A stretch of DNA of 64,000 nt, taken from NCBI RefSeq assembly GCF_029395535.1, contig NZ_CP113920.1:1-64000 (forward strand), given 5' to 3'. The stretch is from Bifidobacterium sp. ESL0732 (lineage in GTDB: Bacteria > Actinomycetota > Actinomycetes > Actinomycetales > Bifidobacteriaceae). The stretch's first letter is position 1. Each line of letters starts with the position of its first letter. Below are positions 10,754-44,700 of this stretch, one piece after another. Made by a program: the position numbers and the translations under genes. The notes under the pieces are model-generated. The model was not told the origin of the DNA, made no database searches, and saw only the letters and a program-made list of their open reading frames with translations.

Positions 10754-10767
10754 GTATTTCAAAAACA

Positions 10768-10803: not shown

Positions 10804-10933
10804 TTGGAATAAGGGAAATCGGTTTAAAAGGATTGACGATTCTGTTTATCGTTTTCCGTTTTACATTTCTATAAACACTGTATAAGCATGCCATACTTAC
10901 ACAACGGAACAGAGAACACAAAGGAAGTGCACG

Positions 10934-11668
10934 ATGTATAGCAGTACAGGGGATACCTCCGTCCGACAAGATGACGTCCTCGCGTCCCAGAATGTGCACA
11001 ACAAGGCCGGCAGGACGCGACCATTACGTATCGCCGTCACCGACAATGACAACTTCGCCCTGATGACGCTCGCAAATCTTCTGCCGCATACCGTGCCCGA
11101 CTCCATCGTGATATGGAGCTCCACATCGGCCACCGACACCATTGCCAAAGCAACGGAACCCGCCTCGATGCCCGACATACTCATTCTCGACATGTCGCTG
11201 AGTTCGACCTATACCGGCCCTGAAGTCTGCCACGCCATTCGCAAGGTAACACCGAAGGTGAAAGTGCTGGGCATCACCTCTTACTCATTGGAACATTACG
11301 CGGCGGATCTGGCCGATGCGGGCGCACAAGGTCTGGTCTCCAAATCGGATATTCCCCAACTCCAGACGGCATTGCAGGCCATCTCGCAGGGCAACATCTA
11401 TTCGGTATTCAACGACGTTCATTTTTCGAGCGCCCAAGAGGCATACAACCGCATAAGCCGGGAACCTTCAAACGACAAGGTCCAACTGACGGAACATGAG
11501 AAGAAAATCATGGATCTGTTGGCACAGGGCAAACGATACAAGCAGATCGCTGACGAAATGGAAATCAGCGAATCGTCCATACGCACCGGCGCACATCGCG
11601 CGATCAAAAAGCTAGGTGCTTCCACGTTGAGCCAGGGCGTAGGTGTATGGATGTTGGAACACAAGTGA
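10934..11668 (+). CDS. LuxR/NarL-type response regulator
   Basis: A 244-residue DNA-binding response regulator. The receiver domain (about 31-155) has the acidic pair Asp37/Asp39 in TDNDN, the phosphoacceptor Asp86 in ILDMSLSS, Thr115 in GITSYS and Lys137 in VSKSD. The C-terminal LuxR-type helix-turn-helix (about 185-240) starts LTEHEKKIMDLLAQG. A good ribosome binding site AAGGAAG lies seven bases before the ATG. It lies between two surface-protein/kinase pairs and overlaps the following kinase gene, so it is the only regulator available to both kinases here. Its likely targets are the BspA genes with shared upstream sites. Confidence 0.88.
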   Translation: MYSSTGDTSVRQDDVLASQNVHNKAGRTRPLRIAVTDNDNFALMTLANLLPHTVPDSIVIWSSTSATDTIAKATEPASMPDILILDMSLSSTYTGPEVCHAIRKVTPKVKVLGITSYSLEHYAADLADAGAQGLVSKSDIPQLQTALQAISQGNIYSVFNDVHFSSAQEAYNRISREPSNDKVQLTEHEKKIMDLLAQGKRYKQIADEMEISESSIRTGAHRAIKKLGASTLSQGVGVWMLEHK

Positions 11669-13962
11669 ACAAAGCAGGCGACACCTCGATGGATGGCCGC
11701 TCGTCAGCGGCTTTCACCATCAAGGATGCTCTGCGGTTCATAAGTGAGAAACTCAGGCACGGCATCAAGGCCGAGCCACCCGTCATCGCAGTAACGGTCT
11801 GCGGCACCATTGTTCTTTTGGCTGTAAGCATATTCGGCGACCTATTCGCTTCCGCCGAATCTGCCGGAATTGTCGTTATCATACTCATAGCGGCATTGCT
11901 CAGCAGCCTGTTCGTGCCGACAATCGGTGCTATAGCTTCGTTTCTGGCAGCACTTTTCAGCATATATGTTTCGTATGGACTCCAGCAACAAGGTAATGAC
12001 ACCATTGCGAATTTTGTGCTGACCGATGTACTGGTGATGCTGATCGCTTCCGAGCTGATGTTGGGGTATCTCAAACGCTGGAAAAAACTGGCGTGTCTGA
12101 TGCCGATTTCGTTGGCAATCGCCATCATCATCACGCTCGTCAGCGATAATGCGGCACCCGGAAAACCAAGATATGCGATGGACAGCGGGCTGCTCGGCGT
12201 GATGTTGGTAATCATTTTCCCCTGGATTCTGGGCATGATTGCCAGACAGCAGAGCGATATGCGCGGCACCATGCGCAAGGAGGACGAACTGCGTCGGGCC
12301 ACCATACGGCTCGAGGCGACGCGTCAGAACCGCCGAATGGCGGCAACTCTGCACAACAAGGTCATGGAAGAGCTGAAATCCATCAACGTGTTTGCCGGCC
12401 AAGCCGAAGCACTGACCGCCGACGGGCGCCAACGCATCGCAGGAGAAGCGAAAAAGGCACTGAACGAGATGCATCAGGTCATCAATCTCTTCGATGAGAT
12501 TTCCGACGCCGGTGAGCCGATTGGCAACGGGACAGCGACATACGGCAAGGTGGCGCGAATAGTGCATCTCCTGCGCATGCCAAGAATCAAGGAAAAACGC
12601 GAAAATCCGGCGCGACAAGGGGTGCCGACGACATCGCGAACGGCAACGCATACCGTCTTGCAACACAGGCCCATATCCAATAGGTGCAAGGCCTCAGCCG
12701 ACATTCATGACGCCGTCGCGCCGGCCACGGAAACCACCCACGGACCACGCACCGAAACAAACCGCAAAATAACCGCTAAAACAAACGGCAAAGTCAGTCA
12801 CAGCCTTCGTCTTGACCGGTTTACGGCACCCACCATCGCCATCAGCCTGACGGCAATAATCGTCTCGACATTCATACCCTCCCCCTATGCTCCGTCGCTC
12901 TCGCTGCCGATGACCGCGCTCATGGCGTTGCTATCGCTGCTCATGGTGTTCCTGCCGACCGCAGGCGCGGCAATCGCGTTCATCGTGGCCGTAAGCCTCA
13001 TCATGATACCGGGAATCCCTCATGTGGCCGCCTACATCATGACCGTCTGCAGCGGCATCCTGCTGGGCTATTCGCGGCGCGGCCGGCATTGGAGCCTCTG
13101 GTTGTGCGTGGCCATGACCGTGGTGTTTCTTGGCGATCTCATCCTGGTCGAACACGACATATTGGCCCGCATACTGACCATGGCACTCCTTACTCTTGCC
13201 CCATGGAAAATCGGACGGTATGCCAGACGTCAACAGGGGCTGAACCATGCGGCATGGATCAACAGCCAGTTGTTGACGAAAACGACCCAGCTCAACAAGG
13301 AACACTACGATGGCATACTTGCCGAGGCCATCCACGACTCCATCACCAACGAGCTTTCCACCATCATTTTGCTCACCGACGACCCAAACAGGAAATGGAC
13401 GAACCAAACCTTGCAACTGGTGGGTCGCGCGGCTCAGGATGCGTTCGACAACATCGGAGAGGTCATCGATCTGCTCAACGGCACCGGCAACACACCCAAC
13501 GAGTTCAATGACGCCACCCGCGATGTTCACGGATGGCTGGTCGCACGGCTCGCCCACGAGGATTCGTCGCTTCACGCCCTCGGCTATACCGGGATATCGC
13601 AGGTGCGCGGCGGCCTGGGTAAAGGCGAAAAGGCGAATATGGAGTCCATAGGGATGGCGAACCACCTGCTTACCGAGATCTATACCAACATTGTTCGGCA
13701 CGCAAGCCCTGGTATCGACGGTTATGCGCTTGTCGCCGAACTCGAAAACGGATGGCTGCGCATCACGGAAACAAACGATTGCAGCGGTTCGGGCCTCGAA
13801 CTCAAGGGAGTGGAACACGGCAAAGGACTTGGGTTGCATAAGGATTCGGTGGAAGCCATGGGTGGCACGTTCGAGACGGCGGCCGAAGACGATTCGTGGA
13901 TTGTCAATTGCACCATTCCGCTTGCAACCAAGCAAAAAGACCATTCAAAGGTTGGACAATAG
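11647..13962 (+). CDS. Sensor histidine kinase with duplicated membrane/dimerisation modules (K2)
   Basis: A 771-residue paralogue of the kinase at 1931 with the same double-module layout. Module 1 has membrane segments at about 46-200 and a dimerisation helix with His236 in TLHNKVMEELKS. Module 2 has membrane segments at about 392-520, phosphoacceptor His563 in AIHDSITNELST, and a HATPase domain with N-box EIYTNIVRHA and HGKGLGLH. Unlike K1, the first module keeps a histidine, though it has no ATPase domain of its own. The start is uncertain. ATG 11647 overlaps the regulator gene by 22 bases, GTG 11665 overlaps its stop codon, and ATG 11689 lies just beyond. None has a strong ribosome binding site, which suits translational coupling. 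It probably phosphorylates the regulator encoded just upstream. Confidence 0.8.
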   Translation: MDVGTQVNKAGDTSMDGRSSAAFTIKDALRFISEKLRHGIKAEPPVIAVTVCGTIVLLAVSIFGDLFASAESAGIVVIILIAALLSSLFVPTIGAIASFLAALFSIYVSYGLQQQGNDTIANFVLTDVLVMLIASELMLGYLKRWKKLACLMPISLAIAIIITLVSDNAAPGKPRYAMDSGLLGVMLVIIFPWILGMIARQQSDMRGTMRKEDELRRATIRLEATRQNRRMAATLHNKVMEELKSINVFAGQAEALTADGRQRIAGEAKKALNEMHQVINLFDEISDAGEPIGNGTATYGKVARIVHLLRMPRIKEKRENPARQGVPTTSRTATHTVLQHRPISNRCKASADIHDAVAPATETTHGPRTETNRKITAKTNGKVSHSLRLDRFTAPTIAISLTAIIVSTFIPSPYAPSLSLPMTALMALLSLLMVFLPTAGAAIAFIVAVSLIMIPGIPHVAAYIMTVCSGILLGYSRRGRHWSLWLCVAMTVVFLGDLILVEHDILARILTMALLTLAPWKIGRYARRQQGLNHAAWINSQLLTKTTQLNKEHYDGILAEAIHDSITNELSTIILLTDDPNRKWTNQTLQLVGRAAQDAFDNIGEVIDLLNGTGNTPNEFNDATRDVHGWLVARLAHEDSSLHALGYTGISQVRGGLGKGEKANMESIGMANHLLTEIYTNIVRHASPGIDGYALVAELENGWLRITETNDCSGSGLELKGVEHGKGLGLHKDSVEAMGGTFETAAEDDSWIVNCTIPLATKQKDHSKVGQ

Positions 13963-14300
13963 TAAAGATATGGTGAATTTTAATTTCTCAACATTGAGAA
14001 CGTATCGCAGTGCGGATTTTCTCCGTTTTCTTGATAAATAGACAAACGTCTACCGGATATAGATATTTGTCTACAAATTGAAAACAAAAAGTAGCGAACT
14101 GTCTATTACCTCGTTGCAAAACGTCATAAAAAGCCCGGAATCCCCCTAAAAACATCACTCTGCCGGCACATTACACTATGCATCAGAAGCTCGAGGATCT
14201 AAGGCAATACAATATAATATTTATTTGTAATACTCACAGGTCGTAACAGGTGAAATCAAAGATGTCATGCGCCAAGTGGGAAGAACGACGAAGGAAGTTC
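13963..14300 (+). promoter_or_regulatory. AT-rich leader of BspA-2 with three TAGNNNNNNGTCTA sites
   Basis: A 338-base gap without a gene. Three 14-bp sites fit one pattern: TAGACAAACGTCTA at 14039-14052 (perfect 5-bp arms), TAGATATTTGTCTA at 14060-14073, and TAGCGAACTGTCTA at 14092-14105. Starts are 21 and 32 bp apart, close to two and three helical turns. The last site lies 195 bases before the BspA-2 start, as for BspA-1 (193). No confident -35/-10 pair was found. These are candidate binding sites of the LuxR-type regulator at 10934. Confidence 0.6.
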
Positions 14301-17015
14301 ATGAAGAACAATTGGAAAGCCGCGATCGGCGCGCTGGCGGCAATCGCCTCACTGACGGCACCTGTGCTGGCCAACGCCGACGGAATCGACACAGGTTCCG
14401 GCGAGACGCATTCCCAAGTCCACGTTCAGGACACTCTCCAACCAATACCTTGTGTCGCACCATTCTCCGCCCCGGCTACTGACGGGCATGCCGGATGGCG
14501 AAAATCCGACACTTTTGAAGGCTGCACCCTGACCGTCAAAGCCGAGGGCACCAACAACGCGATGCCCAATGCCGTGAGCAACGAGGTGCAGCATGTCACC
14601 TTCGCAGGCCCCTCCAAGACCGTATTCAGCGATACTACTAGCCTCAATCTCAGCTCCAAACCCAACCTGGTGACATTCACGAGCGCGAGTCTGGTGGACT
14701 CCTCGCAGCTGACCGACATGGCCTTCCTCTTTATGGGCGATACAGCGCTTCAACGCATCGACCTCGCCGGCTTCAACACCAGCAACGTGACCAACATGAA
14801 CAGCATGTTCGCCAGCGATATCGCCCTTCAATACCTTAATATCAGCAACTTCAGCACCACAAGCGTCACCGATATGGGAAACATGTTCTACGGCAATGTA
14901 TCCATGCGAGATCTTGACCTGAGAATGTTCATTACTCTCGGCGTCACCAACATGCAGAACATGTTTTACGGCGACCATCTCCTCAATCAACTGAACCTCA
15001 GCAGCTTCGATACCAGCAGCGTCAAAAATATGCAGGGCATGTTCGCCGGACTCAACAGCGGAAACAACACGCCCATGGATCTCAACCTGTCCACTTTTGA
15101 CACCGAAAACGTGGAAAACATGGACAGCATGTTCGCGAACGCCAACGTAAGCAACATCGAGGGCCTCAGCGCGTTCAGGACCGGCAAGGTGAAGTACATG
15201 CACAACATGTTCGCGACGAGCCCTCTGACCACACTGGACCTGACCACCTGGGACATGACCAAAACCGAGATTTCTCCAGGATCTCCATTGCCACCGGGCC
15301 AGGCCGCCCCCACCCCGATTACACTTCCTGCCAACCTCACCCAACTGACCGTCAGTTTGACAACTCGTTTGGGCAGTGACAGTTTTCCTGTCGCCGCGAC
15401 CGGATTCACCTGGACACAGGTGACCAGCCCATATGTCAGCTTCGACCACGATGCGTCATACACCACCTCCCAGCTAATCGACCACGTCAATGCGGCCTCT
15501 ACCGATGTGAAGGGCACTTACCTCCGGCAAATAAAGCGCGTTGCGCTGCTGGACAACGAGGCACCAGAAGATGGATATTCGTCGACCACCGCACCATCGA
15601 CTGCGCCAAATCCGCTGGTCGCCCTCGGATATAATGCTGACGCTAACCTGCCCGACGGGGACGGGGGAACAGCGTATGTCGCCAATCGTGAAATGAAAGT
15701 CACGCTTCCCGGCAACACCATCACCTACTCCAACGGAGGCCACGAGACCAAAGACTTCACCTTCGTAGGCTGGAAGGACGCGGTGGCCAACAGGATCTAC
15801 CCCGCAGGCGATACCGTCACCCTTACCGCGGATAGCGTGACACTGAAAGCCAACTGGAACAGGAACAGGGATTCCAGAAGTCTCAACGACGAATACATTG
15901 TCGATTCCGGCATAACGAATGACCATTATTACACCAATGCCACGTGGAACGCGTTCCAGACGGCCCTGAACGCCGCGGGGAACGTGCTCGCCGACGGCAG
16001 CAAGGGGCAAACCAACGTCGACACGACTCTCGCCAACCTCTGCGATGCACGATCAAAACTTGACAAGTCCCCTTTGCAGATACTGGTCGACCAAGCCGGC
16101 AGACTCACTCAAAACGACTACACCAGCGACTCATGGAATAGCCTGCAGCACGCCCTGACAGCCGCAAAAAACGTACTCGACAACCACAACTCGACTCAAG
16201 ATGAAATATCCGCAGCCGTCAGGAACCTGACACAAGCCATGAAAAGTCTGGTACGCCAAAACCACAACGGCCATGACAAAACCGTATTAAGCGATACCAT
16301 CAAAGAGGCTGAGAACAAGAAACGAACAGGCAATAAAGACGGTAGATACGATGAAACGGCCTGGAGAAATTTCCTTGGCGCCCTGGATCTCGCGGAAGAT
16401 ACGCAGAACGACTCGAACACCACCCAAGACATCATCGACAACGCCTGGCAGCATCTGATCGACACTATCGCCGGCCTTGAGCCAACGCCGTCTGGCAGTG
16501 ACTCGGGCATCACCAGCGATAGTGAACATAGCAACACCGAAGGCAAAAAAGAGGAAAACAGCAGCCATAACGGCAAGGATGATACAGTCAAAAACGCAAA
16601 AGATAAAGGCAATGGATCTTCGGCCGACAGCGACAAGAAGTCAGACGGCTCATCGAACGGCAACAACCAAGATTCACCATCGTCGTTACAACGCCGACAG
16701 GTGCCGTCGCCGTCCGGCAAGAAGCAATCGACAAATGTCGACGAATCCAATGACTTCAACGGTGCAATCCTCAACGCACGCAGCAATGATACGCAGCCTT
16801 CTCTGCACGGCTCCCAAAATGGCAATCAAAACAGTGATGCGCACCATCGTCAAAGGGACAAGACCACAGCCGGCGCAAGGAGCGCCTCATCAAGGCATCC
16901 CGCTGCTTGGTCATGGATGATTGGGCTTGTGCTTATCATCACGATTGCATGCCTTATAGCAGGGTACCTTTACACCTGCAAGAGGAAAAACAACGCAACA
17001 AGCAGTGACGAGTAA
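14301..17015 (+). CDS. BspA-family LRR surface protein with 3 FIVAR-like repeats (BspA-2)
   Basis: A 904-residue secreted, membrane-anchored protein and a shorter relative of BspA-1. The ATG at 14301 is chosen for the AAGGAAG just upstream and the signal peptide (cleavage likely after Ala26, VLANA|DG); an in-frame start at 14250 lacks these. BspA-type LRRs span about 138-322 (FNTSNVTNMNSMF and variants). An InlB-type repeat spans about 411-520 (FTFVGWKD, LKANW). Three FIVAR-like repeats occupy about 520-730. A long Ser/Asp/Lys/Asn-rich region follows, then one membrane helix at about 868-890 and a basic tail. The three FIVAR units match units 1, 2 and 20 of BspA-1. There is no sortase motif. 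It follows K2 and shares upstream sites with BspA-1. Confidence 0.85.
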   Translation: MKNNWKAAIGALAAIASLTAPVLANADGIDTGSGETHSQVHVQDTLQPIPCVAPFSAPATDGHAGWRKSDTFEGCTLTVKAEGTNNAMPNAVSNEVQHVTFAGPSKTVFSDTTSLNLSSKPNLVTFTSASLVDSSQLTDMAFLFMGDTALQRIDLAGFNTSNVTNMNSMFASDIALQYLNISNFSTTSVTDMGNMFYGNVSMRDLDLRMFITLGVTNMQNMFYGDHLLNQLNLSSFDTSSVKNMQGMFAGLNSGNNTPMDLNLSTFDTENVENMDSMFANANVSNIEGLSAFRTGKVKYMHNMFATSPLTTLDLTTWDMTKTEISPGSPLPPGQAAPTPITLPANLTQLTVSLTTRLGSDSFPVAATGFTWTQVTSPYVSFDHDASYTTSQLIDHVNAASTDVKGTYLRQIKRVALLDNEAPEDGYSSTTAPSTAPNPLVALGYNADANLPDGDGGTAYVANREMKVTLPGNTITYSNGGHETKDFTFVGWKDAVANRIYPAGDTVTLTADSVTLKANWNRNRDSRSLNDEYIVDSGITNDHYYTNATWNAFQTALNAAGNVLADGSKGQTNVDTTLANLCDARSKLDKSPLQILVDQAGRLTQNDYTSDSWNSLQHALTAAKNVLDNHNSTQDEISAAVRNLTQAMKSLVRQNHNGHDKTVLSDTIKEAENKKRTGNKDGRYDETAWRNFLGALDLAEDTQNDSNTTQDIIDNAWQHLIDTIAGLEPTPSGSDSGITSDSEHSNTEGKKEENSSHNGKDDTVKNAKDKGNGSSADSDKKSDGSSNGNNQDSPSSLQRRQVPSPSGKKQSTNVDESNDFNGAILNARSNDTQPSLHGSQNGNQNSDAHHRQRDKTTAGARSASSRHPAAWSWMIGLVLIITIACLIAGYLYTCKRKNNATSSDE

Positions 17016-27510: not shown

Positions 27511-27873
27511 TTCTTCTTTTGTCCCGTTTTACCTTTCTTGATTTAATGGATATCTGCGTATATGTTGCCGACGTTGGCAGTGTGATTCTTTTTATTTCAG
27601 GGTCATCGTTATCCATCTCGAGTCATTGTTGGCTTGCTATGAATATGGTTTTATACACTCAGACAACGGGGCAATGGTAAACCGGTTGAGATTACTGGTA
27701 CGGAATGGTTCAATGGCGTAAATACAGTGTTTATTTATAACTCCAAATTAAAGTATTGTCTAAATATTAAAAAAGTTTTACATTATTTGTCTATGCATCG
27801 TATTACTACAAATCCTGGGGGTACTGGATCGGGTGTAAGTCCGATCAAGTAGAAGTTTCAGAAAGGATTAATA
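27511..27873 (+). promoter_or_regulatory. Leader of BspA-3 with two GTCTA sites and a hairpin near the start
   Basis: An AT-rich stretch without a gene. TAAAGTATTGTCTA (27749-27762) and ACATTATTTGTCTA (27780-27793) match the right half of the sites before BspA-1 and BspA-2, and their ends are again 31 bp apart. The left halves are weaker. Closer to the gene, GATCGG (27827-27832) and CCGATC (27841-27846) form a hairpin 28 bases before the start, which could affect translation. AAAGGA precedes the ATG. Confidence 0.5.
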
Positions 27874-30800
27874 ATGCGTTTTAATGGGGGAAAACTCATT
27901 GGCATTGTGGCCACCGCAGCATTGATGTGCGGCGTCGTGGCCACGGCAAGTGCCCAACCAGCGCAACCAGTGGATGCAACCGCCAATTCGGCTGCAAGCC
28001 AGCAAGTTTCCACTGCTTCGACACAGGATGCCGCGAAGTCGGATATCGGCAAGAATCTCAATAACGATGAAAATAATGTCATCGGACAGGCGCCAAAGGA
28101 CGAAGCGCCTCAAGATACGACAAAATCGGAACAGAAGGCGCCGACTCCAAATTCTTCTGCGAAAGACGACAATACGGCGAATACAAGATCGTCGGCCGCT
28201 CCTACGCCGTCAACGCAGAGCAACCAGAACGCGACGGTTGGGCCTCAGGAAGTGCTTCCGACCACAGCGGATTGCAAGCCTTACAAAGGTGGGAACGCTG
28301 CCGAATCTTCCGCCAATGGCTCTTGGACGTTGGGTATGAAAGACGGACAGTGCACGCTTGAAGTCACTGCCACTGATCCGGTCAACGAGTATCAGTTTAC
28401 GGTGATCCCCAGCACTTTGGACGATAGCGAACCAAGCGTCGCATATCAGCGTGCGTTTATTGAGCATGTGATTTTTAATGGTGTCGGCAAAGTTAAGCTT
28501 CCCGCTAGCGCCCATGGCTATTTTGACCATATGATGAAATTGAGTTCAATTGATGGTCTTGACCATTTGGACACGAGTGCAGTAACGGACATGAGCAGCA
28601 TGTTCGAAGCGACCCGGATTCCATCGTTGGATTTGTCGAGTTTTGATACCAGCAGCGTCACAAACATGTCTGATATGTTCTACGGGGCATCAGCTGCTTC
28701 TATACAATTCGGACCACGTTTCGTCACCAACAAGGTGACGGACATGTCGAGCATGTTTGCGAGAGATCAAGCTTTGACGTCTTTGGATCTCTCTGGTTTT
28801 GACACCAGTAACGTAGAATATATGTATTACATGTTCCATATGGCCGAAGGTTTGACGACATTGAAGTTTGGAGCAAACTTCAAGACTTCCAAAGTCAAGA
28901 ATATGACTGCCATGTTCATGTTTTGTAGCAAATTGAAGTCTTTGGATGTTTCTCATTTTGATACGCATAACGTGACTGACATGGCGGGAATGTTTGAATA
29001 TTGCTATAACCTGACGTCTTTGGATGTCTCTCATTTTGATACGCATAACGTGACTGACATGGCGGGAATGTTCAAGAATTGCAGTAGTTTGACCTCTTTG
29101 GATATCACGAACTTCGATACGAGCCAAGTTGGAAGAGATTCATATGGGGTTGATGCAGGGACCCCACGTGATATGAATGGCATGTTCCAGGACTGTGTAA
29201 ATTTGCAGTCGTTGAAGCTTGGACAAAAGTTCCAGACTGGCAATGTCAAAGATATGGGGTCAATGTTTAGTGGTTGCGAGAAACTGACGTCTTTGGATGT
29301 TTCTGGTTTTGATACACACAAGGTTATCAACATGAGTGGTATGTTTGCGGTTTGCGAGGACCTGACGTCTTTGGATGTTTCTCATTTCAATACGCGTAAC
29401 GTTACCGATATGACTGATATGTTCATGAGTGACGGCGCTTTGACGTCATTGGATCTGCGAAACTTTAATATGCGAGGTGTCTCCAAAGTAAGGCATATGC
29501 TTTCAATTGCTAACAGTGACCCAGACCAATTTGATCTTCGTGAGCTGAAGCTTGGCGACAACGTCGTACTTCCGACCCCTGCCAGTACCGGGACATGGTG
29601 GGGCGATATATGGCTTGAGGATCCTTTGATGAGTGATGCGACATGGGTTCGCGTGGCCGATGTCAACGGTGCAGCGGTTCCTGAGGCGAATCTTTCCAAG
29701 CAATATTCTTCGCTTGATGTAGAGCACCGGACCCAGGGTTCTGACCCCTCACGTTCGGGCACGTATGTAAGAAGCGACTCCACAAAGCTTTCGGTCGATA
29801 TGAATGCCGTAGGTGACAAGAAGTGGGGCACGGTCTCCGACCCGCAAAAGGCTGTCGGACACTTCAAATACGTTCAGAATGCCCAAGGGCAGGACGTGTG
29901 GCAGATGCAATTCGGCACGCTTAAGGCTCCTGATAAGACTGCTCTGCATGTCAATATGAGTGTCGACAACGCGGCCAACAGCCCGAAGTATTTCAAGTTC
30001 ACTGGTTGGAATACGAGCAAGGACGGTACTGGTACGAGCTACGCACCTGGTCAGGATGTGCCGATGAATAATGACGTTACCCTGTATGCCCAGTGGAAGC
30101 GCATTGGCACCCCTGGTGTTTCGATGGATCTTCATGCGAAATACGTGCTGGACTTCAAGATGAATCCGCCTGCGGGTTCCGGTGTGACTGAGCCTGCTGC
30201 GCCTGATAAGGCCACTTCGGTGTTCCAGCTTGATTCTCCTGCCGATATCACCAAGCCGCACGCTATCAAGATCGATCATCAGGCGTATCCGGCCATTGAT
30301 GGCTACCGTTTCGACGGTTGGACGCTCAATGGCAGCACGACGGTTTACAAGCCTGGAGATCAGGTTTCGGTTGTTCCTGGTGTCACCGAGCTTAAGGGAC
30401 ATTGGACCAAGCTTTATACCTATTCTCTGAAGTTCAATGCGAACGCCTCCAAGGGTGTAACTGGTTCCATGCCGCAGGTCGGTTCCGTCGGCCCGACGGC
30501 TGATACGAGCCACACGTTCACGATTCCTGCCAATGGGTTCGTTCGTGCAGGATGGCACTTCAACGGCTGGAACACCAAGGCCGACGGTACTGGTCAAAGC
30601 CCGGTGTCGGCGAGTGGTGTTGATACGTTGACGCTGAATTCGAACAATCCGGCTGCGACGCTTTACGCACAGTGGGTTCCTGAATATGTGTATTCGCTCT
30701 CCTTCGTGTCCGGTCTGCCGGAAGGAACCGCCTCCAAGGCGTTTGATCCGGTGAAGGGCAAGGCCACCACGGCCAAGTCCGCTTCATTGAAGGTTCCTGC

Positions 30801-31731
30801 GGGCAACAAGTATTACCGCGAGGATCAGCAGCGCTGGCAGTTTACCGGTTGGAGCGATGGCATGGGCCATACTTATCAGGCTGGCGATACCGTCAACTTG
30901 ACTGATGCCAACCCGCATGTCGTGCTGACTGGTCAGTGGGCCCGCGTTTACAACTACAACCTGCGTTTCCAGCCTACGTCCAAGAACGACAAGGCCAAGG
31001 TCTCGCGTAGCTTTGCCGCGGTCTCCGGAGGAAGCACCACCGACGAAACGATGGTGATGACCATTCCGAGCAAGTACAGCTTGAATCTCGACGAGACCGG
31101 ACACTATATGTTCACCGGTTGGAAGGATCAAGACGGAACTCTCTACAAGCCTGGCGACCACGTCATGCTGAAGAGTGACAATTCGGATGTGACGCTTTAC
31201 GGTGTTTGGAAGTTAGAGCCTGTTACGAATCCTGCTGGACCGACCTCTCCGAGTGAGACCACGAATCCTGCGACGCTTCCGGCTGCCACGAATCCAAACA
31301 GTTCGGTACAAGTGGCTGCTCCGGCATTGCCTGTTGCCGCCGCTGTGTCTCCTCAGTCGGCTTTGACTGTGGCTCCTCGTGGTGTTGCTGGTGCTGCTCC
31401 TCAGGCGATGACCACTGCACCGCAGATCGGTCATGATAGGACTCCGTCCGTGCCGAAGACTCCTGCTCCAAAGGATTGGCGCCGTGCCGAATGCAAGACT
31501 TCCGGTGCTGCCTATGTAGTTAATGTCGCTGGCTATCGCGTGATGGCAAGCGGTAATGTATGTGAAACTCCGAAGACTGCTGCTTCAGCGGCTTTGACGC
31601 AACATGCAAATGCGCCTGTCTGGCTCTGGTGGATTATTGTTGCTGTAGCGATTGCGCTTGTTTATGGGATTTATGTCAAGCGCAATAGCTCCCTTGAAGC
31701 GCAACATCGTGCCAACGAGCGCCAAGACTGA
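27874..31731 (+). CDS. BspA-family LRR surface protein with InlB-type repeats (BspA-3)
   Basis: A 1285-residue secreted, membrane-anchored protein. The signal peptide is cleaved probably after Ala27 (ATASA|QP). A Gln/Asn/Ala-rich spacer follows to about 130. Twelve BspA-type LRRs span about 222-546 with repeats like SLDVSHFDTHNVTDMAGMF. Two of these are near-identical in DNA with a 78-bp period (28938 and 29016 onward). Five InlB-type beta-repeats span about 632-1115, each with FTGW-like and LYAQW-like motifs. A Pro/Ala-rich linker, two Cys, a membrane helix at about 1247-1268 and a basic tail containing EAQHR complete it. The tail resembles that of BspA-1. No sortase motif is present. The LRR part is more AT-rich than the rest. 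Confidence 0.87.
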   Translation: MRFNGGKLIGIVATAALMCGVVATASAQPAQPVDATANSAASQQVSTASTQDAAKSDIGKNLNNDENNVIGQAPKDEAPQDTTKSEQKAPTPNSSAKDDNTANTRSSAAPTPSTQSNQNATVGPQEVLPTTADCKPYKGGNAAESSANGSWTLGMKDGQCTLEVTATDPVNEYQFTVIPSTLDDSEPSVAYQRAFIEHVIFNGVGKVKLPASAHGYFDHMMKLSSIDGLDHLDTSAVTDMSSMFEATRIPSLDLSSFDTSSVTNMSDMFYGASAASIQFGPRFVTNKVTDMSSMFARDQALTSLDLSGFDTSNVEYMYYMFHMAEGLTTLKFGANFKTSKVKNMTAMFMFCSKLKSLDVSHFDTHNVTDMAGMFEYCYNLTSLDVSHFDTHNVTDMAGMFKNCSSLTSLDITNFDTSQVGRDSYGVDAGTPRDMNGMFQDCVNLQSLKLGQKFQTGNVKDMGSMFSGCEKLTSLDVSGFDTHKVINMSGMFAVCEDLTSLDVSHFNTRNVTDMTDMFMSDGALTSLDLRNFNMRGVSKVRHMLSIANSDPDQFDLRELKLGDNVVLPTPASTGTWWGDIWLEDPLMSDATWVRVADVNGAAVPEANLSKQYSSLDVEHRTQGSDPSRSGTYVRSDSTKLSVDMNAVGDKKWGTVSDPQKAVGHFKYVQNAQGQDVWQMQFGTLKAPDKTALHVNMSVDNAANSPKYFKFTGWNTSKDGTGTSYAPGQDVPMNNDVTLYAQWKRIGTPGVSMDLHAKYVLDFKMNPPAGSGVTEPAAPDKATSVFQLDSPADITKPHAIKIDHQAYPAIDGYRFDGWTLNGSTTVYKPGDQVSVVPGVTELKGHWTKLYTYSLKFNANASKGVTGSMPQVGSVGPTADTSHTFTIPANGFVRAGWHFNGWNTKADGTGQSPVSASGVDTLTLNSNNPAATLYAQWVPEYVYSLSFVSGLPEGTASKAFDPVKGKATTAKSASLKVPAGNKYYREDQQRWQFTGWSDGMGHTYQAGDTVNLTDANPHVVLTGQWARVYNYNLRFQPTSKNDKAKVSRSFAAVSGGSTTDETMVMTIPSKYSLNLDETGHYMFTGWKDQDGTLYKPGDHVMLKSDNSDVTLYGVWKLEPVTNPAGPTSPSETTNPATLPAATNPNSSVQVAAPALPVAAAVSPQSALTVAPRGVAGAAPQAMTTAPQIGHDRTPSVPKTPAPKDWRRAECKTSGAAYVVNVAGYRVMASGNVCETPKTAASAALTQHANAPVWLWWIIVAVAIALVYGIYVKRNSSLEAQHRANERQD

Positions 31732-35842: not shown

Positions 35843-36838
35843 ATGTTCGACCGTAACAATTTGCTGAGGAACGGCAAACTGAGGAATGTGCGTCTTGCGA
35901 AGCAGGGCAATGACTCGGTGCGGACGAACGATATAAACGCTACGGACTATTCTCACAATGTTCATGACCCTAACCAAAATTATGATTCTGATTCCGTGGG
36001 CAATACGCACTTCCACACCCTTCCGGGAAACAAGAAGATGACCTCCCGTTCCGCGATTTTTCCCGAAGTGAGTTTTTCGCATATCAATTTGCCGGCGACG
36101 GTGCTGGAGTGGAATCGCGAGAAGTCCACTGCCGAAATGGCCACGATGACCTTTGTGATTCACGGACATGTGGAAATCAGCACGCCAGATAACAAGATCC
36201 TCAAACGTCATCCGGGCGTGTACCTTATTCCTCCGGAAACCGGCGATGTCGTTTTCAAAACCACCGCGCCCGCCAATGAGCTGATCGGGGTGAGTCTTTC
36301 CTCGCGTCTGTTCGCCACGATTCTGCCTGATTACAAGACCTTTTTGATGATGGGCCAGAATTCGAAACTCGATGTTGTTTCGTTGCAGCCGTTGCTCGCC
36401 TTCGTGGTCAGCGCCTGCAATCTCAACAACCCGCATTCGCAGATGGTCGATACGCTGGAAAACGTGGCCAACGATGTCGCGCGTTCGCTGCTGATTGCGT
36501 GTTTCGGGCAGGGAATGACCGTGATGCCGCTGATCGAGCGGGTGCGTAAATATATTTCTCAAAACTATACGGATCCGACGTTGAGTGTCACCAAAACGGC
36601 CGAACACGAGAATGTTTCCGTGCGTACCGTCCAGCTGGCGCTGCAGGAGGCGGATACCAATTTCACCGCGCTTGTGCGTCGTGCCCGCACCGATGCGGCA
36701 CTTGAGCTGCGCAAGAGCCAGCCGTCGTTGACATTGGTGGAGATTGGGGACCGTTGTGGGTTCGGTTCGGTTTCCTCGCTGCGCCGCGCGCTGAAGCTGT
36801 ACGAACAAATGGAAAACCGCGGGGTGGATTCAGAGTAA
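35843..36838 (+). CDS. AraC-family transcriptional regulator
   Basis: A 331-residue regulator. The N-terminal part (about 45-215) resembles a cupin-type sensing domain, with LIPPETGDVV. The C-terminal part (about 230-330) is an AraC double helix-turn-helix with VRKYISQNYTDPTLSVTK, SVRTVQLALQ and the second-helix signature IGDRCGFGSVSSLRRAL. It lies directly upstream of three adhesin genes in the same direction, so it may control them, but that is inference from position. The ligand is unknown. Confidence 0.85.
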   Translation: MFDRNNLLRNGKLRNVRLAKQGNDSVRTNDINATDYSHNVHDPNQNYDSDSVGNTHFHTLPGNKKMTSRSAIFPEVSFSHINLPATVLEWNREKSTAEMATMTFVIHGHVEISTPDNKILKRHPGVYLIPPETGDVVFKTTAPANELIGVSLSSRLFATILPDYKTFLMMGQNSKLDVVSLQPLLAFVVSACNLNNPHSQMVDTLENVANDVARSLLIACFGQGMTVMPLIERVRKYISQNYTDPTLSVTKTAEHENVSVRTVQLALQEADTNFTALVRRARTDAALELRKSQPSLTLVEIGDRCGFGSVSSLRRALKLYEQMENRGVDSE

Positions 36839-37154
36839 TCGTTTGAATCTACTCGGGGAGCGGTTTATTGGTTTTCCTAATCGCCCGTGTTGTGTTGGCA
36901 CTCTGTCATTGCTGACGGCGTGTCGTCTTGAAATGTAATTTAGTTCATATTTACCAACTGTCTGCTGTATTGCGCAATACGATTCTTTAACGATGATTTG
37001 TTGTACATTGAATGTATAAATGACTTCACCTTAAGCATAATATTCATTTTCTGAATCACTGAACGGTTTCTCGTGACAATGTTAAAAATGGCTGAAAATA
37101 CTTGAAACAGCTAGCTTTACACGAGGTTCGTAGAAAGCGACGGGAGACGAAGAA
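36839..37154 (+). promoter_or_regulatory. Upstream region of the first CshA-like adhesin
   Basis: 316 AT-rich bases with no gene. TATAAA at 37015-37020 could be a -10, without a convincing -35. The final 20 bases, GACGGGAGACGAAGAAGTG and neighbours, are almost the same as those before the third adhesin gene at 46028. Confidence 0.4.
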
Positions 37155-40100
37155 GTGACTAAGTACTTAAATTCTCATAGAATATACAATAAATTATTCA
37201 CTGAAATCACGGCGATTGTCGGTACGGTTGCCATGCTTCTGACGGGATTCGTGGCGTTCGGGGGTACCGCCAACGCCATTTCTGCAACTGGTGGGAACGG
37301 CCGTATGGCGCCAAGCATTAACTGGGTTGAATGGGGAGCGGAAGGATCCGCCATCTCTGGTTCAAAGGTGACGTGGACCAAGCCGGCGCAGGCAGGCCCG
37401 AGCAAGTGGATGTCGACCAGATGCTCGCTCGAACCAGCTGCAGGTGCCGGCGATGCGCTTTCGTCATCCAGAACCGTCAAAGTTTACAGGCCGGGTAGCT
37501 ACGGCGGCGACGGCTTGGGGCAGATGTACTTTGATGGCGGTCCCGGATACGGCAACAATATGAAGATCGGTTTGGCGACCGCTGATGACGCAGAAAAGGT
37601 GACATTTGATTTCAGCTGCTCCGCATATCTGATCGATTCGTCCACGGATCCAAGCGCCAATCTCAACGGTTCCACCGATACCAACGCCAGCAGCTTCTTC
37701 AATATCCCATTGCAGGGCCTGGTCTTCGCCGATGCCGAATCCAACAACTGGACGTATTACCAAAGCGAATACATCAAGGCGACTCCAAAAAACGGTACCA
37801 GTCCCGTCTGGCGTTTGCTTGACAGCTACCGTACTCCCGGCTGCTCCACCAATTCGGTCGCAGAGCTCAAGGGCAACACGATGCGCTTCCGTTCCGACGG
37901 CGGCCAGTGTGCCAACTCCGGGGGTACCGGCCCGTCCTCGACGATGTTCCTGCAAGGTTCCACCGAAGCGACGGTAACGCTCAAAGGCGGCGGCAAGACG
38001 GCTGTGGCCCTGGGCAGCATCGTCTCTTCGGATTTCGGTGATGCTCCGTCCAGCTTCGGCGTGGCCGGTTCCATGTTCCAGCCGCAATGGCAGGGCGGAG
38101 AACTTGGCAACGGCGATATTCCGAGCAACGATTACACCTCCAAGGATCAGTACGATCCCGATTCCAGCATGGTCGGCGGAAAGCGTTTCAACCTTTCCGC
38201 GGCTAAAGACGGTGCGGCGACCGACTCGCGTCTGATCGCTCAAAACGAGGAACCCAGCCCTAGACTCGGGGCCAATGAGGACGGTGAGGTCGGGCCTCAT
38301 TTCGACGCTGACGCCGATTGGGATGACGCCAACAGCGATTCCGCATTCGCGGTGGCCCCTGGCGATGTGATCAACGACGAGGATGGCATCGACATCCCGG
38401 CAACGACCCATGCCATCAACGTGATGCCCAACGCGGCCGGCACATTCGACCAGAAAGTCCGTTGTTACGGCTCTGGCGATGTCCGAGGTTGGATCGATTG
38501 GAACCATGACGGGACGTTCGAGGCCGCTCAGGCGACTGCAGCCAACGAAAGGGAAGCCGAGGCAAGCAATCAGGTGGCTTGCACCCCGGATTCCAGCTCC
38601 TCCACCGGCTATTCGGCGACATTGAGCTGGTACTTGCCTGGTGACGCGAAACGTCAGATTTCAGGCGATGGCACGCCTTCCTACATGCGCCTTCGCATCA
38701 CCAACCAGAAGGCTTCCGGAAGCAACAGCATTATGGATATGCAGCCAACCGGCTTGACCAGCGGTGGCGGCGAGGTCGAGGATTATAAGGCCGACGTCCA
38801 TATTCCGACGCTGAGTGTCCGCACCAAGATCGCAGGCGACCGCAAGAGCCCGGATGACCAATTGCGTATGGCCATCAATGTTGGCAACGGCGGCAGTGAA
38901 ATCAGCAGTGCGGCCACCAGCGGCAACATCAGTGGTCTGCAGCCTGCCGCGATTGCGCCCCGCAGTGTGAGGCCGAACTACGGCTATACTGTCTCTGCGC
39001 CCGTTACGTATGGTTCCGGTAGCGGAGCAGAGTATTACAATAAGACTGTCAAGTGTGTCGATCTATCCAACGGGAATGCCGATGTCCCGATAGATTCTAG
39101 CGGGAACCTGACCATGCCCGGCGGCTTTGATGCCAACGTTCAATGTACCTATCAGCTGACGCGTAATACTGATCCTTCGTTGACCATGACCACGGTCGTG
39201 CAGAACAGCCACGGCGGCACGAAGAACGGTAACGATTTCGGTTTTGGCGTTGTCGGCGACCGCACGCCAGGCACAACCAATGATTTCCATAGCACCGATG
39301 GCACCGGCAGCGTCTCCCATTCGTTGGGCGATGATAACTATCTGATCACCCCCACGGCACTTCCCGGAGGATACGAGCAGGTCGGCAATATCGTCTATAC
39401 CGATGATTCCAACGGAAGTGTGATAAATCCTGATTCGAATGGGAAAATCGCACTTGCGCCCGGCCAGCATGTAACCGGTAAGCGGATAGTGCGCGATATA
39501 CCGGGCAAGCTGAAACTGGTTACGCAGGTCGACAACACCAATGGTGGCACCGCCACCTCCAATGATTTCCAATTCGGCGTAACACCTGACGGGGGCAATG
39601 AAACCGATACGGTTGTCTACAATGAAGGCGATCAAAAAGAGGTTTCTGCTGCCAAGTACACGGTTGTCGGCTCCGCGGTTCCCGGTTACGTTCAGGTAGG
39701 CGATATTACATACACTGATGACGTCAGCCATCTGCCCCTGACTCCGAGCGCTGCGCAGATCGCCATCGCCAACGGCCAGTCGGTCACCGGCGTACGCAAA
39801 GTGGCCAGCAAGCCTGCAAAGCTCACGATCACGACAGTGGTTCGTGGCGGAAGCGCGGTTCCCGGGGACTTCCCCGTGACCGCGACCCCTACCGGCGGCG
39901 CCACGGTTTCAATGCCCGATGGAGTACCCCATAACTTCCCTGGCAATAGTTACACGGTCGCCACGGACATGAGCGGTCGGCCAGGTTATGCCATCAGCAG
40001 CGAGCTGAGCTGTGTGCTGAACGACTCCGTGCCGTTGCCTCTGGTGAGCGGCAAGGTCCCGCTCAGCTACGGACAGAATGTTGCCTGCACGCAGGAGGTG

Positions 40101-41249
40101 ACGCCGGGCCGAGCACGCCTGACCCTTTCGACGGTTGTTCAGGGCGAAGGCACCGCTACCCCCAACGATTTTGATTTCTCGGTCACCCCGGTCGGTGGCA
40201 GTGCTCAGAACTATAAGGAAGGCGTCTCACACGATGCACCCAGCGGCAACTTCACGGTGGTCGGCAGCGACAAGCCCGATTACGAGCAGGTCGGCGACAT
40301 CGTCTACCACAAGGACAGCGATCCCAGCGTCACGTTGACCCTGGGAGAGGCTCAGGCCGCCATTGCCAACGGCGAGAGCGTCTCCGGCGTGCGTACCGTG
40401 AAAAGCCACCAACCGGTTTTGACCGTCAAGCTTGAGCGCGATTACCGTTATGGCGGCACCGCTGCGGGTGACGGCTCCAAAATCAGTCTTGTTGCGCCAA
40501 ACGGATCCGCGCAGGACGTCATACTCGACTCGGCCAAGCACGTCGCTTCAGGGACGTACTCAGTCAAGCAGCTTCTGAACGCTGGTTACAAACAAGAATC
40601 CGTCGACGTCAAACTTGACAACGGCACGCCCGTTACGGTCAATGCCGACGGTTCGTTTGCGGTTCCCCGTGATATGAATGTCATCGTCACTTTGAAGAAT
40701 GTGGATGAACCAGGAACGTTGGAATGGTCCCGTTTTGACGAAGACGGCAAGACGTTGCTGCCTGGTTCGGTCTGGCATCTGGACGGCCCGAACGGTGCGA
40801 GCATCGACGTCACCGATTGCACGGCTGCGGTTTGCACTGGCGTCGATCAGGATCCGACGCCCGGCAAATTCAAGGTTCCGAACCTGCCGTGGGGGCAATG
40901 GACGATTAGCGAAATCACCCCTCCGGCCGGCCATGAGCTTACGAAACCCGTACGTTTGCCTTTAAATCCCACCGATGGACTGCTGCAGCATGCGGAGTTC
41001 CAGGACGGCAAGAAACCGGTTGTCATCACACCGGGCAACGGTGGCCAGCAACCTTCGTCTCGGCCGCAGGTTTCGGGGCAGAAGCAACCCAACCCAGCCG
41101 AAGCACCGAAGCTCTCGACGACCGGCTCGGCAGTCACAGCGATTGCGGTCATTGCGTTGGTCGCTTTGATACTGGCGCTCGGTATTCGGGGGGTCAGAGC
41201 ATCGCGCAAGGCGCGCCACGCAAGTCACGAATGGGGCGAGCGCTGGTGA
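37155..41249 (+). CDS. CshA/GEVED fibrillar adhesin with SpaA domain, LSTTG anchor (adhesin 1)
   Basis: A 1364-residue surface protein. The signal peptide is cleaved probably after Ala41 (TANA|IS). The CshA-type N-terminal domain is at about 45-290. A GEVED domain spans about 294-545, beginning FGDAPSSFG and ending GEVEDYKAD, with DVRGWIDWNHDGTF. About six beta-sandwich repeats span 550-1185, each beginning LTxxTVV-like and containing YTDD or a related strand. A SpaA-like domain is at about 1189-1274 (LEWSRFDEDGKTLLPGS ... AGHEL). A Pro-rich stretch leads to LSTTG at 1320, a membrane helix and a basic tail. It is likely sortase-anchored and probably binds host or co-resident cells, by family. 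The GTG start has GGGAGACGAAGAA upstream. Confidence 0.87.
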   Translation: MTKYLNSHRIYNKLFTEITAIVGTVAMLLTGFVAFGGTANAISATGGNGRMAPSINWVEWGAEGSAISGSKVTWTKPAQAGPSKWMSTRCSLEPAAGAGDALSSSRTVKVYRPGSYGGDGLGQMYFDGGPGYGNNMKIGLATADDAEKVTFDFSCSAYLIDSSTDPSANLNGSTDTNASSFFNIPLQGLVFADAESNNWTYYQSEYIKATPKNGTSPVWRLLDSYRTPGCSTNSVAELKGNTMRFRSDGGQCANSGGTGPSSTMFLQGSTEATVTLKGGGKTAVALGSIVSSDFGDAPSSFGVAGSMFQPQWQGGELGNGDIPSNDYTSKDQYDPDSSMVGGKRFNLSAAKDGAATDSRLIAQNEEPSPRLGANEDGEVGPHFDADADWDDANSDSAFAVAPGDVINDEDGIDIPATTHAINVMPNAAGTFDQKVRCYGSGDVRGWIDWNHDGTFEAAQATAANEREAEASNQVACTPDSSSSTGYSATLSWYLPGDAKRQISGDGTPSYMRLRITNQKASGSNSIMDMQPTGLTSGGGEVEDYKADVHIPTLSVRTKIAGDRKSPDDQLRMAINVGNGGSEISSAATSGNISGLQPAAIAPRSVRPNYGYTVSAPVTYGSGSGAEYYNKTVKCVDLSNGNADVPIDSSGNLTMPGGFDANVQCTYQLTRNTDPSLTMTTVVQNSHGGTKNGNDFGFGVVGDRTPGTTNDFHSTDGTGSVSHSLGDDNYLITPTALPGGYEQVGNIVYTDDSNGSVINPDSNGKIALAPGQHVTGKRIVRDIPGKLKLVTQVDNTNGGTATSNDFQFGVTPDGGNETDTVVYNEGDQKEVSAAKYTVVGSAVPGYVQVGDITYTDDVSHLPLTPSAAQIAIANGQSVTGVRKVASKPAKLTITTVVRGGSAVPGDFPVTATPTGGATVSMPDGVPHNFPGNSYTVATDMSGRPGYAISSELSCVLNDSVPLPLVSGKVPLSYGQNVACTQEVTPGRARLTLSTVVQGEGTATPNDFDFSVTPVGGSAQNYKEGVSHDAPSGNFTVVGSDKPDYEQVGDIVYHKDSDPSVTLTLGEAQAAIANGESVSGVRTVKSHQPVLTVKLERDYRYGGTAAGDGSKISLVAPNGSAQDVILDSAKHVASGTYSVKQLLNAGYKQESVDVKLDNGTPVTVNADGSFAVPRDMNVIVTLKNVDEPGTLEWSRFDEDGKTLLPGSVWHLDGPNGASIDVTDCTAAVCTGVDQDPTPGKFKVPNLPWGQWTISEITPPAGHELTKPVRLPLNPTDGLLQHAEFQDGKKPVVITPGNGGQQPSSRPQVSGQKQPNPAEAPKLSTTGSAVTAIAVIALVALILALGIRGVRASRKARHASHEWGERW

Positions 41250-41296
41250 GCTGAAATTTCGCAAGCGGGCTTTAATACAAAGTTGACTTGCGATTC

Positions 41297-41342
41297 AGGT
41301 GGGGCAACGGAAGGCACTTTCCGTTGCCCCACCTTATTTTTG
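41297..41342 (+). terminator. Terminator after adhesin 1
   Basis: A perfect 16-bp stem (41297-41312 with 41319-41334), 6-base loop GGCACT, then TATTTTTG. This is the strongest Rho-independent terminator in the window. Confidence 0.92.
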
Positions 41343-41794
41343 CGCGGCCGATGGGAAACATTTGTGTCGATTCGTTTCGTGTCTGAATTGATATACGCCA
41401 GTCCTTGAAACGTCTAGGATTATATGCTGGTAACGAAAACCTTGAGAAATTCCGAAAGTTTTCTGTCTGGTTGACCTTGTCGAATTTACTGCGGATACCG
41501 ACGAGGTATGAATAAATGTATAGATAATTTTGATTATATGTTTCGTTTGCCTTTTGAACGACAAATATGGAGAATTCCAATTTTTTCATAATATATAACG
41601 TTTAACGGCCATTTTCCTTCGTTGTGTTTTGCAGTTTGCATTACTTTCGAGGAACGCATGAAAAGCGCCATTTTGTGCATAAACGTCGGTTTTTGGTATT
41701 TTTATGAAAATATTACAATGTAAGTATCTCGAAGGTGAGAGGTTGTTCGCGTCAAGATTTGCCTTTGATTAAGTCTCATTGAGAGGAGACGATA
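41343..41794 (+). promoter_or_regulatory. Upstream region of adhesin 2
   Basis: About 450 AT-rich bases without a credible gene. The AT content rises from about 41500 on, as expected for a promoter region. A GTCTA at 41412 lacks the left half of the BspA-type sites. GAGAGGAGACGATA precedes the ATG and supplies the ribosome binding site. Confidence 0.4.
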
Positions 41795-44700
41795 ATGGTG
41801 AAGCACAAAGGATTAGCGAGGCTGGCCGGTGTGGTCGGCACCATCGCTATGGGATTGACAGGCATGTTGGTGACCGGCACCGCAAACGCTGCGTCACCCG
41901 CCAGCCATCCCGCAATAGGCCCGCAGATCTCCGCCACCAGCGGTGACGGGCGATTCAGCGAAGCTATCAACTGGGTGCAGTGGGATCAAAATAGCGATGT
42001 TAACATCTCCGGTAAGAAAGTCCATTGGGGTAAGGCGACGAATGCAGGTGATGGTCATTGGCTGATTACTCGTTGTGAAATTGATCCTACTGGCGATAGC
42101 AACACGTTATCGTCAGACAACATGATGACTACCTATAAGCCAGGAGAATGGTATGGCGATGGTCTTATCAATCTTTACAACCGTAAGAACTCAAATGATG
42201 AAAATACGTTGACCATTGGCTTGGCAAACGAGGAAGATGGCGCAAGAGTCAGTTTCGATTACTCCTGCACGGCTTTCCTCATTACTTCCCAGAACCGTCC
42301 TGAATATGGCGAAAGTTATGAGAGACCTGCAGCTGGTACTTACCAAGAAGTCGGGCTCGAAGGCATGGTATTCGCCGATGCCGAATCAAATAACTGGACA
42401 GGAAGTGCCGGTCAGCAGGAATACATTAAAGTTACTCCAACTGCTGAAGACCAGAAAACGCCTGATTGGAGATTGATTGACAGCTATCGAACTACTGGTT
42501 GCACTACGAATTCAGTAGCTGAACTGAAGGCTGATCAGACCATGCGTTTTCGTTCCGACGGAGAGCAATGCGCTGACAGCAATTACTCGTTTAGTGGACC
42601 ATCATCAGTGATGTTCCTGCAGAACTCTGAGAAGGCCAGAGTGGAAATAAAGGGTGGCGGCAAGACAGCCATCGCACTTGGTGTTGTAGCGGCCACCGAT
42701 TTCGGTGACGCCCCCGGACGCGTACCAGGATCCCAACCTGGAGATGCGGGATACGATGCTGACCACAATTACCAGGTTGCCAGCTCCCTCGTACAACCCC
42801 AGTGGAAAGGCGGCGAACTGGGTACTGATATTGTAAGCGCCGGTGCTTCCACTGAACCTGATGATCCTGACCCAAGTATGGCTGGTGCTCAGGTATTCAA
42901 TTTGACTCAAGCTCGTACAGACAAAAAATTCGCTGATATGGATGAGCCTTTACCAAGACTTGGCGTGCATGAGGATCCAGAATCACGAAGTCACCTTTCG
43001 CCAAACGCCGACTGGGATGATTTGAATGGTGACAAAGATGGTGGCACAATGCTCAACGACGAGGATGGTCTGGCTGAGGCACCGAAAAACGAAACAACTG
43101 GTAATGTGAAGATTCTGCCTGATCCAAGTGGCGATTTTACACAGATTGTCAGTTGTGCGGCAGATGGTGATGCTGAAGTCAGAGGCTGGATTGATTGGAA
43201 CCATAACGGTGTCTTTGACGAGAATACGGAAGCCAGTAACCAAGTGAAATGCCTTGATTCTGGTCCCAACGGTTCAGGCGGCATCAAACAAGGTACTGCG
43301 ACATTGAAGTGGACTATACCGGATGATGCTAAACGAGGTGTGGCTGTCAGTACTACGAGCAGAGCAAATCAATCATTTGAGCGCTTACGTATCACCGGGG
43401 AGAAGAGTCCTCTCGACAATGAGAATCATGGGATTATCGAACTCAAGGCAACCGGAATTACAACTACGGATGGCGAGGTTGAGGATTACCCTGTCGATGT
43501 CTATATTCCTACCATTCACGTGTTGATGAATTTGCCTGAAGGACGTAGAGATTCCACTGATCAGTTTGATATGACCATCAAGGATGCGAATGGCAATCAG
43601 GTGGACAGCGCAACAACCTCTGGTACGAATGATGGTATACAGACGAATCAGATTGGTCCTCGCAGCGTGGGACCGAACCATGAATACACATTATCGGCTT
43701 CGTTGGCAAACGGTTCAGCAAGTCAAGAAAGTGGTTATAAGACTGAACTGCAGTGTTTAGACTTGTCTAAAACCCCGAATGCTGCTGTACCTGTAGAAAA
43801 TGGCAAAATCAAGATGCCTGGTGCGTATGACGCAGATGTGCAATGCACCTACGTGAAGACAAAGCTAGCCAATCCGACGCTGAAGATCACCACGCACGTC
43901 AATGGTGGCACGGCTACCCCTGCGAACTTCCCAGTGACAGCGACACCGATCACAGGTGGAAATGAAACCAGTATGGGTGATGGAGATGCAGTTTCTCTCA
44001 ATGAGGGCTCCTACAAGATTGCCACCGACATGTCTGGCCAGACTGGTTATGAAGTCACTAGCCCGTTGAGTTGTGTCGTTCCTGGGACCCCTAGCACCCC
44101 GGTTTCCGTCGATGACGCAACCGTGGCCTTGGCCAACGGGCAGAACGTCGAATGTGAGCAGACCGTGACCCCTAAGGCCGCGAAGATGAAGCTGGAAACG
44201 GTGGTGAAGAACGGCAATGCCAAGCCAGAAGATTTTGACTTCACTGTGGCTCCGACGAGCGGCTCCAACGAGACAGTCTCCCAAGGTGGCATTGTGACTA
44301 CCCCTACCGGCGGTATCGCTTCGGTGACCGGTTCTGACAAGGCCAACTATACGCAGGTCAGCTTCGACTACTATAACGACGATACTGATCCTGGTCATAC
44401 CAATCCACTGACGTTGGCTCAAGCCCAAGCTGCCATGGCCAACGGTCACAATGTGACTGGTGTGCGCGTTGTTCAAGGTGCCCCGGCCAAGCTGACGCTT
44501 AAGACCGAGATGCAGGACGGCAGTGCTGTGCCGAACGGTATGGACTTCACTGTCAAACCTGCGAATGGCACTGGCATTCCCGTTACCAACGGTGGCAACA
44601 CCGGCGACATTCCAGGCGGCGCCAAGTACACGGTTACCGGTGCGGCACTTCCGGACGGTTATGAGGACGTCGGCGAGATCGTCTACACCGATGACGCCAC

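Follow-up and report, generated by a model that had tools for sequence, protein, structure and literature searches.

A site pair upstream of the surface-protein gene BspA-3 as the candidate operator of a NarL-type two-component system in Bifidobacterium

In a Bifidobacterium genome, the gene for the large surface protein BspA-3 is preceded by two forward-strand copies of the heptamer TTGTCTA (27756–27762 and 27787–27793), positioned 31 bp apart (start-to-start). Each copy is the right half of a 14-bp site. We consider it likely that the pair, at 27749–27793, is the operator of a phosphorylated NarL-type response regulator (10934–11668), which would activate BspA-3 together with two other surface-protein genes, BspA-1 and BspA-2, through helically phased dyads. 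The computed basis of this reading is a motif common to the three genes, with its spacing, rarity and conservation, and the link of this motif to a family of regulators. If the reading is right, it provides a testable operator and a defined set of targets for a large, uncharacterised NarL-type two-component family in the genus. It would also mean coordinated switching of several very large adhesin-like proteins, but not of the other 17 DUF285 proteins of the genome. Positions refer to the window, i.e., the whole 64,000-nt stretch analysed, which comprises bases 1–64000 of a single-contig 2.39-Mb genome; features are on the forward strand unless stated otherwise.

The regulator, its kinases and the surface proteins

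The genes dnaA, dnaN, recF, dciA, gyrB and gyrA occur in this order, which looks typical of bifidobacteria, with five further genes between dnaA and dnaN: HK1, BspA-1, the response regulator, HK2 and BspA-2. Together, these five form a regulator/kinase/adhesin block of ~15 kb (1931–17015) at the presumed replication origin. The regulator (10934–11668), of the NarL/DevR type, has an N-terminal receiver domain (Response_reg, PF00072, E 3.8e-11, above the cut-off) and a C-terminal GerE/LuxR helix-turn-helix (PF00196, E 1.1e-10) that aligns with the DevR, VraR and NarL chains; its recognition helix is SSIRTGAHRAIKKLGA. HK2 (11647–13962) resembles a membrane sensor kinase, with two membrane blocks and two kinase-like halves, the second of which contains, by eye, an H-box (AIHDSITNEL) and an N-box (TEIYTNIVRHA). 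HK1 (1931–4060), a kinase-like paralogue of HK2, follows dnaA and has no adjacent regulator of its own; the H-box of its first half lacks the His (by eye). A Pfam search returned no match for either protein. Both look internally duplicated (self-matches with E 3e-14 and 3e-11), with a degenerate first half.

BspA-1 (4399–10662; start likely at 4399 rather than 4267) and BspA-2 (14301–17015; start likely at 14301 rather than 14250) both contain DUF285 and FIVAR sequences, the latter as repeats in BspA-1. BspA-3 (27874–31731) is located beyond gyrA and encodes a protein of 1285 aa, which Pfam matches and hydropathy mark as a secreted surface protein. It has an N-terminal signal-like stretch, a C-terminal membrane-spanning stretch, a DUF285 match (4.2e-58) and a Listeria-Bacteroides repeat match (5.3e-14); the match to the BspA-type LRR_5 family reaches 7e-7, with no single stretch passing alone. 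These matches place BspA-3 with the BspA family/DUF285 surface proteins. As the preliminary description stated, no kinase gene lies beside it; its neighbors encode a signal peptidase and a VanZ-like protein. An Rfam search found two tRNAs and nothing else. Farther downstream (35843–49189), a gene for an HTH_18 (AraC-type) regulator is followed by three tandem genes for large surface proteins with CshA/SpaA/GEVED domains.

Architecture of the sites and the proposed mechanism

The distal BspA-3 site, TAAAGTATTGTCTA (27749–27762), and the proximal site, ACATTATTTGTCTA (27780–27793), start 31 bp apart, in agreement with the half-site pair originally reported. The proximal site ends 80 nt ahead of the BspA-3 ATG. 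In both sites the right half is exact, and the left halves proved as degenerate as first described: only four of seven dyad positions pair in the distal site and one of seven in the proximal site, which by its symmetry is hardly a dyad. In G087, one of two other genomes with a close orthologue of the regulator, the counterparts are TAGCGTATTGTCTA and ACATTATTTGTCTG, with a spacing of 32 bp and a distance of 79 nt to the ATG.

Upstream of BspA-1, the distal dyad TAGACAATTGTCCA (4161–4174; six of seven positions paired) is followed at 31 bp by the proximal site TAGCGCTTTGTCTA (4192–4205), 193 nt 5' of the ATG at 4399. BspA-2 has three sites: TAGACAAACGTCTA (14039–14052), TAGATATTTGTCTA 21 bp further on (14060–14073), and TAGCGAACTGTCTA another 32 bp downstream (14092–14105), 195 nt 5' of the ATG at 14301. 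The steps between these 14-bp sites (31, 21 and 32 bp) are near whole turns of DNA. The preliminary description spoke of the same 31-bp spacing ahead of BspA-3; this value is exact for BspA-1 and BspA-3, but BspA-2 has 32 bp (14060 to 14092) and an extra dyad 21 bp upstream. The distance from proximal site to ATG is similar for BspA-1, BspA-2 and the BspA-1 of G093, the second genome with a close orthologue (193, 195 and 197 nt).

In the mechanism we propose, HK2, and perhaps also HK1, would sense a signal at the membrane and phosphorylate the regulator, which would then dimerise. The dimers would fill two degenerate 14-bp dyads with the consensus TAGACAnnTGTCTA, 31–32 bp apart; this distance corresponds to three helical turns and would place both dyads on one face of the DNA. 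From there, the bound dimers would bring RNA polymerase to the promoter of BspA-3, immediately downstream. The same regulator would act at BspA-1 (31 bp) and at BspA-2 (21 + 32 bp), such that one two-component system would co-express three surface proteins. We infer binding, phosphorylation, and activation rather than repression. Mechanistically, this would be ordinary two-component regulation.

The promoters bear on the direction of control. A conserved TTAAACTATTCAT lies ~23 nt beyond the proximal BspA-1 site in two genomes; if this element, assigned by eye, is the promoter, the proximal dyad would be set near −42, the usual spot for an activator that contacts polymerase. At BspA-3, by contrast, a putative promoter-like TTTACA-N18-TATTAC (by eye) brackets the proximal site. 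Such an arrangement would suit a regulator that binds but represses, with the proximal site overlapping the −35/−10 of BspA-3 and the gene remaining off until the regulator is dephosphorylated. We regard repression as unlikely, given the activator-like position that TTAAACTATTCAT implies at BspA-1. No clear −35/−10 shared by the BspA-1, BspA-2 and BspA-3 promoters could be set, and because the promoter is assigned by eye and the three agree poorly, activation is a judgement rather than a result. The BspA-3 leader also contains a hairpin (27826–27847) whose stem is still paired in G087, where two pairs have become G-U. With modest folding z-scores of −1.6 and −1.1, it probably has no special status.

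The regulator resembles several characterised systems. Its best sequence match among solved structures is 3c3w (DevR/DosR of Mycobacterium tuberculosis, E 6.5e-15), and DevR/DosR likewise uses paired, helix-phased palindromic boxes upstream of its targets. The DosR box is GC-rich, however, whereas the box here is TAGACAnnTGTCTA; the kinase here is a multi-pass, duplicated membrane protein, and the targets are surface proteins. VraR/LiaR shares the NarL-type fold (match to 5hev, E 5.8e-10) and has multiple sites upstream of its targets, but the motif here is different and the targets are large DUF285 proteins; no LiaF-like gene was seen in the regulator/kinase/adhesin block. NarL/NarX of Escherichia coli has the same Response_reg and GerE domains (match to 1a04, E 7.8e-9) and dyads of the 14-bp class, but the system described here has no known link to nitrate and its kinase has no Pfam match. 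In the parts of the literature accessible to our search on Bifidobacterium BspA/DUF285 proteins and NarL-type regulators, we found nothing on this system and no description of two-component co-regulation of BspA/DUF285 proteins in bifidobacteria. One species-marker table lists a BspA family protein for B. tsurumiense (PMC7493681).

Rarity, ranking and conservation of the site pair

The exact TTGTCTA pair occurs once in the 2.39-Mb genome, upstream of BspA-3, and has no second instance across 112 genomes of the genus. The BspA-1 pair is the only match in the 2.39-Mb genome with one mismatch. When two mismatches are allowed, the window contains three matches, compared to 0.16 expected, and none of 100 shuffles reached three; one of the three (14039, reverse strand) is out of register and lies within the BspA-2 site cluster. 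Genome-wide, on both strands, the pair is not enriched at this threshold (11 matches versus 15 for a control read backward). With no genome-wide excess at two mismatches, it is the near-perfect matches and their locations that carry the evidence. Among 3000 shuffles of the BspA-3 upstream region, none produced TTGTCT[AG] twice at a spacing of 31/32 bp.

To rank the sites, a matrix was trained on the five BspA-1 and BspA-2 sites, with BspA-3 left out, and applied to site pairs spaced by 31 or 32 bp within the 400 bp upstream plus the first 60 bp of each gene. The scoring covered 60 DUF285 genes: 20 from the window's genome (G000), nine from G087 and 31 from G093; the upstream regions of the DUF285 genes listed for G012 lay outside it. 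Dinucleotide shuffles of each region, 3000 apiece, served as the control. After the training regions BspA-2 and BspA-1 came G093 BspA-1 (29.9), the window's BspA-3 in fourth place (19.0) and G087 BspA-3 in fifth (17.9), with the next gene at 13.7. These scores were matched in 0 of 3000 shuffles for G093 BspA-1 and in 4 of 3000 for each BspA-3 region. The ranking supports the view that the BspA-3 sites have the same motif as those of BspA-1 and BspA-2. By symmetry and score, the BspA-3 pair is nonetheless the weakest of the three (19.0 versus 36.8 and 38.6 for the training regions), as had been anticipated.

These features bear on whether BspA-3 owes its pair to chance, given an AT-rich promoter region, with BspA-1 and BspA-2 the only true targets. 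The degenerate left halves and the low matrix score fit such a match; the four shuffles in 3000, the lack of another exact pair in 112 genomes, and the retention of the pair in G087, a genome left with BspA-3 alone of the three genes, make it improbable. The preferred reading, a shared operator, is also consistent with the distribution of regulator and sites. In the 112-genome search, close orthologues of the regulator (69–78% identity) were found only in G087 and G093; the next best match is at 45–46%. The recognition helix SSIRTGAHRAI(K/R)KLGA differs among the three orthologues by a single K/R exchange. As regards the conserved Asp that would be phosphorylated, all three contain an L(I/L)LDMS segment. 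G087 has the regulator and kinase alone between dnaA and dnaN, with no BspA-1 or BspA-2 beside them, and keeps BspA-3 (92%) with its site pair. In G093, BspA-1 and BspA-2 flank the regulator and kinase between dnaA and dnaN with dyads kept, and BspA-3 is absent. Sites are thus present at whichever of the three genes each genome has, which supports the notion that the motif travels with the regulator. Since the sequences upstream of BspA-3 in G000 and G087 are largely alike, conservation of the pair there is weak evidence by itself.

The motif is not a general feature of the protein family. Exact TTGTCTA is absent upstream of the other 17 of the 20 DUF285 genes in the window's genome, which rules out sites common to all DUF285 genes; in the relatives G087 and G093, a single, unpartnered copy is found upstream of four other DUF285 genes. 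The preliminary description proposed that the regulator controls a regulon rather than only its own block. The shared motif and its association with the regulator favor this proposal, but not its extension to BspA genes in general; the regulon is probably small and selective. The two-site arrangement is not strict: G093 BspA-2 has one good dyad, TAGACAAATGTCCG, with no in-register partner, and 745 of 3000 shuffles equal its pair score, which speaks against a strict two-site rule. Autoregulation was rejected, as there is no site at the regulator's own promoter in the window (10663–10950), G087 or G093; some distant relatives differ in this regard.

The dyad across the wider regulator family

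We scanned 400 bp upstream of regulator homologues at 30 loci: that of the window, plus those of 29 genomes out of the 87 others that gave matches. TAGACAnnTGTCTA with up to one mismatch lies upstream of two homologues (G012 with none, G018 with one), compared to 0.01 expected from shuffles; with up to two mismatches it lies upstream of five, compared to 0.18 expected, although two of these five (L039 and L040) have an identical site in related genomes and are not independent. The three closest regulators, including that of the window, have no TAGACAnnTGTCTA site in this 400-bp region, and the G054 regulator (46%) has no dyad upstream. Exact matches to TAGACAWWYGTCTA occur at 13 positions in the 112 genomes; the contexts of 10 were read, with G105 (two) and G106 (one) outside the count. 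Six of these 10 adjoin regulator/kinase genes of this type: window BspA-2, G093 BspA-1, two in G031, and one each in G037 and G111, with the last four loci resembling one another. The regulators there are 32–33% identical (G031 and G037), and the adjacent one in G111 is 31% identical. Those in G001, G102, G058 and G104 have no such genes adjoining. Judging from these neighborhoods, no other kind of regulator found is as closely tied to the dyad as the NarL-type.

A broader proposal, which we make tentatively and rate somewhat below an even chance, is that the two-component system, inserted into the dnaA–dnaN interval at the origin, acts through phased dyads on a few scattered surface-protein genes. 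In this proposal, TAGACAnnTGTCTA would be the operator inherited from the ancestor of a NarL-type regulator family that spans the genus and elsewhere adjoins lipoprotein/ABC and double-glycine-peptide loci. If true, the sequence alone would reveal the operators of dozens of otherwise uncharacterised systems. Short ORFs that resemble double-glycine-leader peptides by eye come after a regulator/kinase pair in G012 (L077:9000–10400), and in G054 a Peptidase_C39 ABC exporter (L079:5559–7814) is encoded close to the regulator. These two loci hint that the family also serves bacteriocin-like peptide loci.

The same neighborhoods bear on whether a different transcription factor, e.g., a LytTR regulator, binds the sites and acts on the same genes. 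LytTR genes are present in all three genomes (four, three and two matches), and a 19-bp sequence containing the half-site, TAGACAATTATTTAGACAT, is found in exact form 5' of both a G087 LytTR gene (L131:3106) and the surface-protein gene at G000:368432. On the other hand, none of the four LytTR matches of the window's genome lies within the window, and no LytTR regulator is adjacent to the targets; the LytTR genes of this genome lie close to different BspA genes, ones without the motif, and the dyad adjoins NarL-type regulator genes at other loci. NarL-type sites are 14-bp dyads, and LytTR sites are direct repeats. Control by another factor of this kind therefore seems to us quite improbable, and we retain the NarL-type regulator as the preferred candidate. 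LytTR genes are found within a few kilobases of other DUF285 genes (G000:1935185–1936745 and 2195362; G087:187502; G093:C2:171707), and those DUF285 proteins may be under separate, LytTR-based control.

Several further dyads were considered as targets and set aside. The dyad at 368355 (up to two mismatches), 5' of the surface-protein gene, was rejected as a regulon member because the site extends into the LytTR-linked 19-mer; since this 19-mer recurs 5' of the LytTR gene in G087, the dyad may belong to another regulator. The gene in question (G000:368432–371557; L130:433–3558) encodes a surface protein of 1041 aa whose repeats, judged by eye, are InlB-like, and TAAATAATTGTCTA lies ~64 bp upstream. 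Its only other relative in the search is in G090 (35%). When G000 368150 was aligned with G087 186900, the two regions as given proved not to be homologous. Two one-mismatch dyads in the relatives were rejected by eye: G087 1074371 precedes a permease-like gene, and G093 C2:421769 lies inside a coding frame. In the window's genome, the dyads with up to two mismatches at 813841 and 2146037 were also unconvincing by eye, preceding an unrelated gene and an acyltransferase-like gene, respectively. A perfect inverted repeat, TTGTCTA-N8-TAGACAA (G000:2146022–2146050; L097), is present 5' of the acyltransferase-like gene, and could be either a site or a stem.
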